Shown: positions 21,160-27,006 of the stretch, one piece after another | How the letters are laid out: each line of letters opens with the position of its first letter | How positions within the stretch are numbered: position 1 is the first letter of the stretch | Assembly: GCF_017355885.1 (NCBI RefSeq) | Contig: NZ_JAFEUU010000007.1 | Span: forward strand, 62,001 to 126,000 | Direction of reading: 5' to 3' | Source: Sabulicella rubraurantiaca | GTDB lineage: Bacteria; Pseudomonadota; Alphaproteobacteria; Acetobacterales; Acetobacteraceae | DNA: 64,000 nucleotides | Notes under the pieces: model-generated | What the model saw: only the letters and a program-made list of their open reading frames with translations | What the model was told of the DNA's origin: nothing | Database searches by the model: none | Position numbers and translations under genes: made by a program

Positions 21160-23298
21160 ATGTCCCTGATCGTTATCCTCGACGACCGAGGCACCAACCG
21201 CCGGATCCTCGCCCGACTGGCTGCCTCGGTCGAGGCGGGCGCCGAGGTCATGCCTTTCTCCAACCCGGTCGAGATGCTCGATTGGATGGACGAGAACCGG
21301 CCCGATCTCGTCATCACCGACTACCGCATGCCGCAGATGGACGGGGCTGAGGTGGCGGCCCGCATCCGGGCCAAGCCCAATGGCGCCGACGTGCCCGTCG
21401 TGGTCGTCACTGCCTATGACGACCCCGAGCCGCGGTTGCGCGCCCTCGATTCCGGGGCGACCGACTTCCTGATCACCCCGGTGGACCATTTCGAATTCCG
21501 CAGCCGGATCCGGAATCTGCTTGCCCTGCGCCGCCACCAGGTCCGCCTGCGCGACGAGGCGCAGGACCTGGCGCGCGAACTGGAATCCTCCGAGCGGTCG
21601 CGCCTCGCCTTGATCCGCGAGAGCCGGAAATCCCTGGGGCAGGTGATCGACACCGTACCGGCGCTGATCAGCGCCACCGACAAGGCCGGGCGCCTCGTCC
21701 TCGTCAATGCGCGGCAGGCCGCGCAGGCCAACGCCACCGCCCCTGAGCTTGTGGGCCATCCCCTGTCGCGGATGGTGGGCGAGGCGCGGGCGGCGCAGAG
21801 CCTCGCCGCCGACGCGCGCGTCTTCGGCACCGCCCGCCCCATCCCATCCTTCGAGGAGGACGTGCTGGACGCAGCCGGGTCGCGCCGCACCCTGCTCACC
21901 ACCAAGTCGCCGCTGCTGGATGCGGATGATGAGGTGACGGCTGTCCTGACCACCTCGGTGGACATCACGGAGCGCAAGCGAGCGGAGGAGCGGCTGCTCT
22001 TCCTCTCGCGGCACGACCCGCTGACCGGCCTCGCCAATCGCAGCGTCCTGGCGGAGCGGCTGGAGGAAAGCTGCCTCCGGCCCGAGCATCGCTTCGCTCT
22101 GCTCTTCCTCGACCTCGACCGGTTCAAGGGCGTCAACGACGTGCTGGGCCATCAGGCCGGCGACCGCCTCCTCACCGAGGTCGCGCTACGCCTGTCCGAG
22201 GCAGTGGGCGACGAGGCGATGATCTGCCGGCTCGGAGGGGACGAATTTGCCGTTCTCCGCCCCGGCATGAGCAGTTCCCGGGAGGCGGAGGGGCTCGCGC
22301 GGCGGCTCCTGGCGGCGCTGGAGCAGCCCTTCGCGCTGCCGGGCCGCACCGTTTCCACCTCGGCTTCGATCGGCATCACCCTGTTCCCGGACGACGGCGA
22401 CCGGGCGGACGGACTGCTCCGCAACGCCGACCTCGCCATGTATCGCGCCAAGGCCGAAGGGCGGAGCGGGTTCCGCTTCTTCGAGTCCTATATGGACCGC
22501 GCGGCGCGCGAGGCGCTCCAGGTCGAGGGCGATCTGCGCCTCGCCCTGGCCCGCGGGGAGTTCGAGTTGCACTGGCAGCCTCAGTGCAGCCTCCGGACCG
22601 GGCGGATGACCGGGGCGGAGGCGCTGCTGCGCTGGCAGCATCCGGAGCGGGGCCTGCTGAACCCGGGCCACTTCCTCGCCACCGCCGAGGAAACCGGGCT
22701 GATGGCACCGATCACCCGCTGGGTGCTTGATGCCGCCTGCCGGCAGGGCGCCGAGTGGTCGCGCCGCGCGGGCGGACCCATCCGCGTGGGGGTGAATCTG
22801 TCGCCCTCGCTGTTCCGTGGCGGTGGCGTGCTCGAACTGGTGGAACAATCCCTGGCCGAGGCCGGGCTCGCGCCCGAGCTGCTGGAGATCGAGCTGACGG
22901 AACGGGACCGGTTCGAGGACGAGGCGGCGGTGCTGAAGACGCTGAGCGAGCTGCGCTCCCTGGGCGTGCGCCTCGCCATCGACGATTTCGGCATCGGCTA
23001 TTCCTCGCTGCTCTATGCCCGCCGGCTGCCGGTCCACCGGCTGAAGATCGACCAGTCCTTCATCGCGCTGTTCCCCGGCGACCGGTCCGACGCCGCGATC
23101 GTCGGTTCCGTGATCTCCCTGGCGCATGAGCTGGGCATGGAAGTCGTCGCTGAGGGGGTCGAGAATCGCGCGCAGCTCGAAGCGCTGCGGACGCTGGGCT
23201 GCGACGAGGTGCAGGGCTTCTTCATTGGTCGCCCCGTTCCGGCGGACCGTCTGGACCCCGGCGCGGCGGAGGCGCGGGCATGCCGGTTGCCTGCCTGA
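21160..23298 (+). CDS. REC-PAS-GGDEF-EAL cyclic-di-GMP signalling protein (DSF-locus effector)
   Basis: A 712-residue soluble protein. Domains in order: receiver (about 1-120; acidic pair Asp8/Asp9, phospho-acceptor Asp54 in [11 protein letters not shown], Thr84), PAS (about 155-275), GGDEF (intact GGDEF at 359-363), EAL (intact EAL at 487-489, with [10 protein letters not shown] and EGVEN present). The receiver looks like RpfG receivers but has Thr106 where the conserved Lys should be. The PAS-GGDEF-EAL part is the layout of Burkholderia RpfR. It lies 13 nt before the RpfC-like kinase gene and is probably its phosphorylation partner. The GGAGAG at 21141 supports the ATG at 21160, with a rather long gap. 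A TTGACT at 21086 could be part of its promoter. Confidence 0.92.
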
Positions 23299-23311: not shown

Positions 23312-25849
23312 GTGACCGCCGAGGCGCCGCGCGGACTCCGCGCCAGGCTGCGCGCCCTGCGTGGCCGTCCGGACACCGAGCACGAGATGAGCTTCAACCG
23401 GCTCGGCTTCGCGCTTCTGATCACCCTCTATCTGCTGTGGGAGGACGCGCCGCACCACGCGCTGGAGGTGGTGACCGCCTACTGGGTGGTCGCGCTGGCG
23501 CTGTTCGTGCACATCCTTGCGCGGCCCGCCACCAACAATCCGCGCCGGGCGACGGCGCTGCTCCTCGACATCGGCTTCCTCTCCTACGAGCTCAATGCCG
23601 GGGCCGAGGTCACCTCCGTTCTCGCGCCGATCTACCTCTGGGTGATCCTGGGCAACGGCTTCCGCTTCGGGGTGGGATGGCTGCTGTGCGCGCAGGTGGT
23701 TGCGCTGATCGGCTTTTCCGCCACCGTGGCGGCAACGCCTTTCTGGAGCGACCAGATCCATCTTTCCGCAGGCTTCATGCTCGGCCTGGTCGCCATTCCG
23801 GCCTATTCGGCGACGCTGATCCGCAAACTGTCCGATGCCAAGGCCCAGGCGGAAGGGGCGAACCAGGCGAAGACCATGTTCCTCGCCAGCGTGAGCCACG
23901 AGCTTCGGACGCCGCTGAACGCCATCATCGGCACGGGCGGCCTGCTCGAACGCTCTCCCGCCCTTCCCGGCGAGGAGCGGGAGATGGCGCGGACGGTGAG
24001 CGATGCAGGGCGGCATCTGCTTGGCCTCATCGACGGCATCCTCGACTTCTCCCGCATCGAGGCGGGGCAGATGACCGTGCGCCGCGAGGCGTTCGAGGTC
24101 GCGGCCCTGCTGGACGAGGTGCGGCGGATGCTGGCCGGGGCGGCGCAGGACAAGGGGCTGGGCCTCGCGCTCCACGTCACGGCCCGCACCCCCCGTGTCG
24201 TGGAGGCCGACCGCAACCTGACGCGGGACATTCTGCTGAACCTCGGCAGCAACGCGCTGAAGTTCACCGATCGCGGCTCCGTCACCCTGGCGGTGGACGC
24301 GCCGCCCGGCGAGCGCTCCTCGCTGCGCTTCGAGGTGACGGACACCGGCATCGGCATTGCCCCAGAGGCGCAGGGTCGCATCTTCGAGGCCTTCACCCAG
24401 GCAGATAGCAGCATCATCAACCGCTTCGGCGGCACGGGTCTTGGCCTCGCCATCTGCCGCCGCATGGTGGAGATGCTGGGCGGGCGCATCGGCGTGCGCA
24501 GCGCGGAAGGGCAGGGGAGCACCTTCTGGTGCGAGTTCCCCGCCGGCCACCCCGCGCCGGAAGCGGAGACCGTCCTGGCCGGCGAGGCCGTGCTGCTCGC
24601 CGCCGATCCCGCGCTCTGGACGGCGGGCGAGCCTCGCCTTGCGGCTGTCACACTCCACCCGGCTTCAGGGCTTCCCGCGGCGGTGACGCTGCTGGAGACC
24701 CTTCCGGCCGGGCGGCCACGCATCCTGCTCGTGGATGCGGCCAGCCTGAGCATGACCGCGGAGGCGTTGGCGGCGGCGCTTGCCGTCCTCAACCCGCTCG
24801 GTGCCTGGCGCGTCGTGCTGCTGGGCGATGCGGCAGGGGAGGATGGGTTCCCCGCCGAGTCGCTGCGGCGCGGCTTCTTTTCGATTGTCCCGCCGCCTGC
24901 CTCCTCCGCCGCCCTTTTCGGAGCCTTGGAGGTCTGCGGCCTCCCCGAAATGGGTAATGCACCCGCGCCCATCAGCCTTCCCGAAGCCCCGGCCCCGCAG
25001 GCCGCCGTTCCGCACGCCCCTGCGCCTGTCGGCACTGCCTTGGCCCCCCGGCGCGGGCTGCGCATCCTGGTGGCCGACGACAACCGCACGAACCTCCGTG
25101 TCGCCGGCAAGATCCTGGAAAGCGGCGGCCACCGCGCGACGCTGGTGGAGGGCGGCGAGATGGCCCTCGACGCGCTGGAGGAGGACGAGTTCGACCTCGT
25201 CCTCATGGACCTCAACATGCCGGACATGGACGGGATCGAGGCGGCACGGCTGTACCGGTTCCAGGCCATGGGGCGCCGCCAGGTGCCCTGGGCGGCGCTC
25301 ACCGCCGACGCCACGGATGAAGCGCTGCGCCGCTGCCAGGAGGCGGGCTTCGTGGAGCGTCTGGTGAAGCCGCTCACGCCCGATGCGCTGCTGGCCGTGG
25401 TGGAGCGCCTCGCCCTGCCGAGCGCTGGGCCGCAGCCCGGGGTGGAGCCCATCGTCAGCCATCCGCGCTTCCGTCCCACCAACCAGATGCTGGTGGACCA
25501 GCGCGCCCTGGACAACCTGGAGGCACTGGGCGGAGCGGAATTCGTGCAGAGCGTGGTCGAGGATTTCCTGCACGACGCCGAGGAGATCCTGGAGGAGTTA
25601 CGGCTGGCCGCGCTCGAGGCCGATGCGTCGCAATATCGTGCGCGCGCCCACGCCATGCACAGCGCCGCGGCTAATGTGGGCGCCACGGCGCTATGCGAGT
25701 TGTGCCGGGCGGCCAAAGACGTCAGCCCGCAGGAACTTCGCGAGCAAGGAGAAAGGATGGTGGAGCGCATCGCGAACGAGTTGTTGCGCGTTCGACCGTT
25801 GTTGTTGCGACCATCTGAACGGGGAGAAGCAGGCGGCGGAATGTATTAG
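23312..25849 (+). CDS. rpfC: RpfC-like hybrid sensor histidine kinase
   Basis: An 845-residue membrane kinase. A short cytoplasmic N-terminus ([16 protein letters not shown], like the GRADSEH region of Xanthomonas RpfC) precedes several TM helices (about 30-170). HisKA has His196 in SHELRTPLN; the HATPase has [15 protein letters not shown] and [10 protein letters not shown] degenerate middle region follows, then a receiver (Asp589/590, acceptor Asp633 in [11 protein letters not shown], Lys in LVKP) and a C-terminal HPt with His780 in [13 protein letters not shown]. This is the full RpfC order. In Xanthomonas RpfC senses DSF and restrains RpfF. I chose the GTG at 23312 (AGGG upstream) because the homologous N-terminus starts there, rather than the ATG at 23387. 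Confidence 0.92.
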
Positions 25850-26061
25850 GGTTCGATTGAGCAAAAAGATTCTCTTTCCGTTCATCGCAACCTTTCTAGA
25901 AATCGCGCAACTCTCAGAAAATAAAACAAAACGGAGGCAAGTCCTCCGTGCGAGGAAACTTGCGCAAAGTTGCCCATGCGGTTGACGCTTTTCGTGTTCT
26001 ATTAACGGCAAGGCTAAGCGGGCTGCCCCTGGCCCGATGCCTTCTCGACACGGAGCACGTC
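25850..26061. other. AT-rich rpfC-rpfF intergenic region
   Basis: About 210 bp, strikingly richer in A and T than the rest of the window, with an 8-bp palindrome TTGCGCAA at 25960-25967 and a hairpin at 25931-25949. A promoter for rpfF probably lies here, separate from the upstream pair; TTGACG (25982) and TATTAA (26000) are visible but only 12 nt apart, so they do not form a standard pair. Confidence 0.5.
25918..25949 (-). terminator. Intrinsic terminator pointing against the rpf genes
   Basis: On the minus strand a perfect 7-bp stem (ACGGAGG, 5-nt loop, CCTCCGT) runs straight into a T-rich tail (TTTGTTTTATTTT). In the plus direction there is no T tract. No annotated minus-strand gene lies in front of it, so it may end a small RNA or an antisense transcript from the rpfF leader. 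Confidence 0.55.
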
Positions 26062-27006
26062 ATGACCTTTGTTTCCTCCACGCCCGCCCTCCTCGAAGTC
26101 GCTCAGGGTTCCACCCCGGCCCCCGTTTCCCTTTCCTCGCTGCGTTTCGAGACTCTCGAGACCCGGCTCGAAGCCGACACGGCAAGCTTCTGGGCCTCGA
26201 TGAACCCCGGCCCGAAGCCTTCCTTCACCCGCGAATTGCTCCGTGACATCCTCGCCCAGCAGGCCGTGCTGCGTGACACGCTGCGGGCGGAGCGCGAGGC
26301 CGGCCTCTCTCCCTCCCTGCGCTACTACGTCATGGGCAGCAGCCTGCCGGGCATCTTCAACCTGGGTGGCGACCTCGGCCATTTCGCCGACCGCATCCGC
26401 AGCCGTGACCTCGCCTCGCTGCGCCGCTACGGCCATCTCTGCGTCGAGGCGATCCACGGCAATGCCGAGGCGTTCCGCTCCCCCGTCGTCACCATCGCCA
26501 TGGTGCAGGGCGACGCGCTGGGCGGCGGCTTCGAGTGCGCCCTGGCCTTTGACGTGATCGTGGCCGAGCGCAGCGCCAAGTTCGGCCTGCCCGAGATCCT
26601 GTTCAACCTCTTCCCCGGCATGGGCGCCTATTCCTTCCTGTCCCGCCGCATCGGCGCGGTCGAGGCGGAGAAGATGATCATGTCCGGCAAGCTCTACACG
26701 GCCGAGGAACTGCACGCGATGGGCGTGGTGGACGTGCTGGCCGAGGACGGCGAGGGCGAGGCCGCGGTGCGCCGCTACATCGACCAGCACAGCCGCAAGC
26801 ATAATGCGCAGCAGGCCCTGATGCGGGTGCGCCGCCGCGTGAACCCGGTGACGCTGGAAGAGCTGAAGGACGTGGTGGACATCTGGGCCGAGACGGCTAT
26901 GGGCGTCACCGAGATGGACCTGCGCAAGATGGTTCGCCTGACCCAGGCGCAGGAGAAGCGCATCAACGCCAGCAGCCAGCCTGCCCTTGCCCGTGCCATC
27001 GCCTGA
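26062..27006 (+). CDS. rpfF: RpfF-like diffusible signal factor (DSF) synthase
   Basis: A 314-residue crotonase-fold enzyme. FNLGGDLGHF, GDALGGGFECAL and GLPEILFNLFPGMGAYSF match Xanthomonas RpfF almost word for word. Glu158 (in GGGFE) and Glu178 (in LPE) are 20 residues apart, exactly like catalytic Glu141 and Glu161 of RpfF, so dehydratase and acyl-ACP thioesterase activity making a cis-2-enoic fatty acid is expected. It is about 25 residues longer at the N-terminus than Xanthomonas RpfF (289). The ATG at 26062 follows CGGAG; an upstream in-frame start at 25948 would read through the AT-rich leader. Neighbour of the RpfC-like kinase, which strongly supports the DSF assignment over ordinary enoyl-CoA hydratase. 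Confidence 0.93.
   Translation: MTFVSSTPALLEVAQGSTPAPVSLSSLRFETLETRLEADTASFWASMNPGPKPSFTRELLRDILAQQAVLRDTLRAEREAGLSPSLRYYVMGSSLPGIFNLGGDLGHFADRIRSRDLASLRRYGHLCVEAIHGNAEAFRSPVVTIAMVQGDALGGGFECALAFDVIVAERSAKFGLPEILFNLFPGMGAYSFLSRRIGAVEAEKMIMSGKLYTAEELHAMGVVDVLAEDGEGEAAVRRYIDQHSRKHNAQQALMRVRRRVNPVTLEELKDVVDIWAETAMGVTEMDLRKMVRLTQAQEKRINASSQPALARAIA

Follow-up and report, generated by a model that had tools for sequence, protein, structure and literature searches.

A predicted DSF signalling locus of Sabulicella rubraurantiaca in which an RpfG-type receiver precedes PAS, GGDEF and EAL domains

Most descriptions of DSF signalling come from gamma- and betaproteobacteria and from leptospirilli. In the RpfF-RpfC-RpfG system of Xanthomonas, the REC domain of RpfC is the part that binds RpfF, and the output domain of RpfG is HD-GYP. 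A different arrangement is found in Burkholderia and Cronobacter, where the DSF receptor is RpfR itself, which carries an FI domain but lacks a receiver (PMC6361424). RpfS, a PAS_4 histidine kinase of Xanthomonas for which no N-terminal receiver is described, is an accessory sensor distinct from the core regulator that is encoded next to rpfC (PMC4504480). In Stenotrophomonas, RpfF occurs as two discrete variants, RpfF-1 and RpfF-2, whose natural N-terminal variation lies next to a variable RpfC (PMC4504480).

Here, we analyzed a window of 64,000 nucleotides from Sabulicella rubraurantiaca (Acetobacteraceae; contig NZ_JAFEUU010000007.1, positions 62,001 to 126,000), whose features are listed in Table 1. 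As in Xanthomonas, the locus encodes an RpfF with both catalytic glutamates, an RpfC with the R-x-D-S/T-E-H motif, histidine kinase, REC and Hpt domains, and a response regulator whose gene stands beside rpfC. Unlike in Xanthomonas, however, PAS-GGDEF-EAL takes the place of the HD-GYP output of RpfG, rpfF runs in the same direction as rpfC both here and in the nearest relative, the RpfF leader is longer, and no rpfB was noticed beside rpfF in the window. Like the RpfF-RpfR pair, the locus places a DSF synthase beside a protein with PAS, GGDEF and EAL domains, but this protein has a receiver (Pfam Response_reg) at its N-terminus where RpfR has the FI domain, and a separate RpfC is present. On the basis of homology, motifs, gene linkage, co-occurrence and receiver phylogeny, we consider it highly probable that the locus combines an ordinary RpfF carrying a mostly unconserved leader, an RpfC sensor and an RpfG-type receiver with a GGDEF-EAL output. 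In such a circuit, RpfF would, judging by its homologs, make a cis-2-unsaturated fatty acid by two-glutamate chemistry, and the adjacent RpfC would sense this signal, presumably a DSF, via the RPDTEH motif beside its first membrane helix. Phosphate may then pass from the REC and Hpt domains of RpfC to the RpfG-type receiver at the start of the REC-PAS-GGDEF-EAL protein. With GGDEF-EAL where Xanthomonas RpfG uses HD-GYP, this protein would set the level of cyclic-di-GMP; the RpfC receiver may also inhibit RpfF.

Table 1. Coordinates of the features at the rpf locus (positions within the window)
Feature	Position	Strand	Basis
REC-PAS-GGDEF-EAL protein, 712 aa, at the RpfG position, with RpfG-type receiver	21160..23298	+	domains, receiver tree
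rpfC, hybrid sensor kinase (DSF-sensor motif, hydrophobic input, HisKA, HATPase, REC, Hpt)	23312..25849	+	GTG 23312 as inferred start
RpfC REC domain	25064..25402	+	best PDB match 3m6m_D, RpfC REC, E 1.4e-25
rpfF ribosome-binding site GGAG, 6 nt before ATG 26062	26052..26055	+	
rpfF, predicted DSF synthase, 314 aa + stop	26062..27006	+	ORF, NCBIfam and PDB comparison
RpfF conserved N-terminal tip MTFVSST (family pattern MT[FY][LVI]xxP)	26062..26082	+	
RpfF leader variable linker, residues 8-27, unconserved	26083..26142	+	9.4% mean identity, 52 relatives
RpfF first catalytic glutamate E158 (Xcc E141)	26533..26535	+	alignment to 3m6m
RpfF second catalytic glutamate E178 (Xcc E161)	26593..26595	+	alignment to 3m6m

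The third gene of the locus adjoins rpfC on the upstream side. At the corresponding place in RpfF-bearing genomes sampled from other classes, six of the loci examined carry RpfG (REC plus HD-GYP). In a maximum-likelihood tree, 22 alphaproteobacterial third-gene receivers grouped with the six RpfG receivers with support of 98/97, against a narrow outgroup of 14 receivers from the own genome and the RpfC receiver. Thus, an RpfG-type receiver lies beside rpfC, whereas the HD-GYP output is lacking in the third protein, which has PAS, GGDEF and EAL domains; in addition, a search of the flanks retrieved for the Acetobacteraceae RpfF loci gave no HD-GYP motif. Because its receiver groups with RpfG and apart from 14 other receivers of the genome, the protein is best read, as far as sequence can tell, as an RpfG with its output exchanged, HD-GYP having been replaced. 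A search that covered mainly the open literature gave no description of an output-exchanged RpfG. A regulator that keeps the receiver of RpfG but not its enzyme would amount to a natural experiment from which the parts that matter to the circuit could be learned.

The output of the third gene differed among relatives. At the Acetobacteraceae RpfF loci, we counted 27 REC-PAS-GGDEF-EAL and 7 REC-PAS-only proteins, and 15 REC-PAS-histidine-kinase proteins were present at RpfF loci of other alphaproteobacterial families. The latter have a REC-PAS_4-HK arrangement. A PAS_4 domain that would feed a signalling output is a feature shared with RpfS. At L056, L061, L062, L063, L064, L067 and L098, from five genera, the third protein stops after the PAS domain and is 264-285 aa long. 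When compared with solved structures, the PAS domain of the window protein appeared generic, and that of RpfR was matched weakly (E 0.0023) and not as the best hit. In the receivers of the third gene, the phosphorylated aspartate is kept, and the switch lysine is serine or threonine in 52 of the 54 relatives; the window receiver has threonine at this position (codon 21475-21477). With the switch lysine replaced, the response to phosphorylation may be unusual, which counts against the proposed circuit. A wider proposal, possible in our view but rather doubtful, is that alphaproteobacterial DSF signalling uses a modular RpfG, in which an atypical RpfG-derived receiver and PAS_4 are followed by an exchanged output (GGDEF-EAL, histidine kinase or none), the RpfC phosphorelay and a PAS ligand converge, and the tip of RpfF serves as a possible docking motif. 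If this were true, the RpfC phosphorelay and a ligand at the PAS domain, perhaps DSF, would meet in one protein.

The rpfC gene lies upstream of rpfF on the same strand, and its product shows a sensor motif of the R-x-D-S-E-x-x-Q type followed by HisKA, HATPase, REC and Hpt. In the window, this motif reads RPDTEHEM and adjoins the first membrane helix (helices were judged by eye). R-x-D-S/T-E-H occurs in most relatives and extends to the Xanthomonas-like RpfC of L129, where the motif reads REDSEHAQ. In Xcc RpfC, R15, D17, S18, E19 and Q22 are needed for DSF sensing, and S18T is functional (PMC5391125). Four of these five residues are retained in the window, namely R15, D17, E19 and a threonine in place of S18. 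However, the Q22 position is methionine in the window and in most Acetobacteraceae, which counts against the proposed circuit. Among solved structures, the receiver is closest to the Xanthomonas RpfC receiver of complex 3m6m. The presence of a genuine RpfC partner beside rpfF is supported.

The initial annotation had described about 25 extra N-terminal residues in RpfF compared with the Xanthomonas enzyme and suggested that such an extension could change the contact with the RpfC receiver. The figure of 25 proved to be the total difference in length (314 versus 289 residues), which is spread over the leader (∼10-15), a loop before FNLGGD (1-7) and the C-terminus (8-9). By HMMER, with the 16 extra residues of the PDB chain subtracted, residue 46 stands opposite Xcc residue 36 (10 extra), ∼17 extra residues have accumulated by FNLGGD and the remaining 8 are C-terminal. 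By MAFFT against the Xanthomonas-like RpfF of L129, the leader has 27 versus 12 residues, the block at 28-98 has 71 versus 70 and the tail 12 versus 3, so that the leader accounts for 15 of the extra residues, the block for 1 and the tail for 9. With start codons called by Shine-Dalgarno patterns and a small bonus for threonine at position 2 (omitted in the tip and codon counts below), leaders were 22-69 aa long in all 54 Acetobacteraceae sequences with a callable start and in one from Sphingomonas, forming a continuum unlike the two discrete paired variants of Stenotrophomonas. They were mostly 31-66 aa in other Alphaproteobacteria and mostly 10-19 aa in other classes, where a small-genome family (f188) reached up to 96 aa. 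Judged by these lengths, the window leader is among the shorter ones of its class.

Conservation of the N-terminal residues, on which a special role would depend, was largely missing. Across 52 relatives, the mean identity to the window RpfF was 42% for residues 1-7, only 9% for residues 8-27, 41-69% for most of the core and 34% for residues 61-98, so that within the leader the tip alone was kept. In the window, the proline of the family tip pattern stands at residue 8. Threonine at position 2 followed by phenylalanine or tyrosine occurred in 25 of the 44 RpfFs with ATG and a Shine-Dalgarno sequence, compared with 1 of 201 other open reading frames that were called nearly alike on the same contigs; it should be noted that these sequences share descent and are not independent events. 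The codons for the threonine, aromatic, aliphatic and proline residues of the tip vary synonymously among relatives, which suggests that the constraint is on the peptide and not on the RNA. Thus, the leader is, judging by the alignments, mostly an unconserved linker with a short conserved tip, typical of alphaproteobacterial RpfF. It most likely has no specific role apart from the tip and is probably not a special regulatory extension. Leader length alone appears to be a poor guide to the regulation of RpfF.

The support for the suggested effect on the RpfC contact is therefore weak at best. The extension measures roughly half of what had been claimed and is unconserved over residues 8-27, and what stands in its favor is the conserved tip and the precedent of Stenotrophomonas, where N-terminal variants of RpfF go together with matching RpfC variants (PMC4504480, PMC4517397). 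On account of that precedent, the idea that the N-terminus affects RpfC is reasonable but unproven. A small docking role of the tip is conceivable, and a specific version is that, flexibly tethered, it docks on the RpfC receiver or the substrate tunnel of RpfF and tunes inhibition. Preservation of the tip at the amino-acid level over many genera next to a variable linker would fit this idea, as would the paired Stenotrophomonas variants and the similar tip, MTVINQ-P/T/A, with which RpfFs of another class (family f199, L122-L126) begin ahead of a shorter leader. However, the linker is unconserved, tips diverge in several genera, and leader length ranges from 22 to 69 aa across genomes that nearly all retain an RpfC. 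In the Xcc RpfC receiver, He et al. in 2006 are said to have identified Q496, E504 and I552 as RpfF contacts; these positions vary widely in the family and are M, D and L in the window, which also speaks against docking. We therefore regard a docking tip as unlikely.

As for the enzyme itself, all three motifs by which RpfF had first been recognized were located in the open reading frame: GGDLGHF at residues 102-108, DALGGGFE at 151-158 and LPEILFNLFPGMGAYSF at 176-192. The two catalytic glutamates, 20 residues apart as had been noted, align with E141 and E161 of DSF synthase in 3m6m, a numbering given previously (PMC9040811). Among 99 aligned homologs, the first position was glutamate in all 99, and the second was glutamate in 96 and aspartate in 3. 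The top four PDB matches were RpfF-type chains (7zq7, 2.3e-54; 3m6m, Xanthomonas RpfF, 5.5e-54; 6dgn and 5fus, RpfF, 1.6e-50). The protein scored 367 bits with NCBIfam PRK08788, above the cut-off of 177, and 219 bits (E 6.5e-65) with the NCBIfam RpfF model, under the equivalog cut-off of 550, which we take to be set for close relatives of Xanthomonas RpfF. This shortfall counts against the proposed reading. Only one RpfF was found in a search of the own genome, where the next-best crotonase reached 53 bits versus 681. Its closest named relative is in Roseococcus sp. MDT2-1-1 (96% identity), and a search of viral contigs gave no further relatives. A single-chain AlphaFold2 model built from eight sequences had a pLDDT of 53 and was too poor to use. 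By these comparisons, RpfF is an ordinary crotonase-fold DSF synthase whose predicted product is a cis-2-unsaturated fatty acid. Its fold, the Pfam assignment to ECH_1 with nothing more specific, and the thioesterase activity that RpfF enzymes also show (PMC6361424) might instead indicate a general acyl-ACP thioesterase or enoyl-CoA hydratase that makes no signal, but RpfF-type chains matched at E 2e-54 to 2e-50, whereas the best of the other crotonases reached only 4.6e-19, and the gene co-occurs with RpfC, making such an enzyme very improbable.

A start at ATG 26062 is supported by the GGAG located 6 bases upstream and by comparison with the near-identical L009, in which 8 of 37 residues of the frame differ 5' of this ATG and none of the first 45 3' of it. 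A misassigned start, with a leader other than described here, is hardly credible: the frame is open upstream as far as GTG 25948, itself preceded by GGAGG, but it is not kept past the closest relative, ATG 26062 has its own GGAG, relatives mostly show an ATG-ACC start with a Shine-Dalgarno sequence at the equivalent place, and the next in-frame ATG downstream (M47) falls within a conserved block.

Finally, we examined the occurrence and linkage of these genes. RpfF was present in about a quarter of the sampled Acetobacteraceae genomes (52 of 200) and scattered, together with RpfC, in other Alphaproteobacteria. At 37 of the 53 family loci rpfC lies near rpfF, mostly in convergent orientation as in Xanthomonas. 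Where it does not, an RpfC-type input was found elsewhere in 13 of the 14 genomes tested, and two congeners without RpfF had no RpfC input either. The idea that long leaders accompany the loss of RpfC was rejected, since an RpfC is encoded elsewhere in almost every genome in which rpfC does not adjoin rpfF. The fourteenth genome tested (G143; 7.4 Mb, rated 100% complete) contains two RpfF genes (L075 and L092), and no RpfC input domain was detected in it. Few loci, those of the window and of its nearest relative L009 among them, have rpfF co-directional with rpfC, which counts against the proposed circuit; over 23312-27006 this orientation is shared with Roseococcus sp. MDT2-1-1. Because most relatives are convergent, a local inversion at rpfC-rpfF is likely. 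An Acetobacteraceae-type cluster with REC-PAS-GGDEF-EAL was also observed in Sphingomonas jatrophae (L015), which may reflect horizontal transfer.
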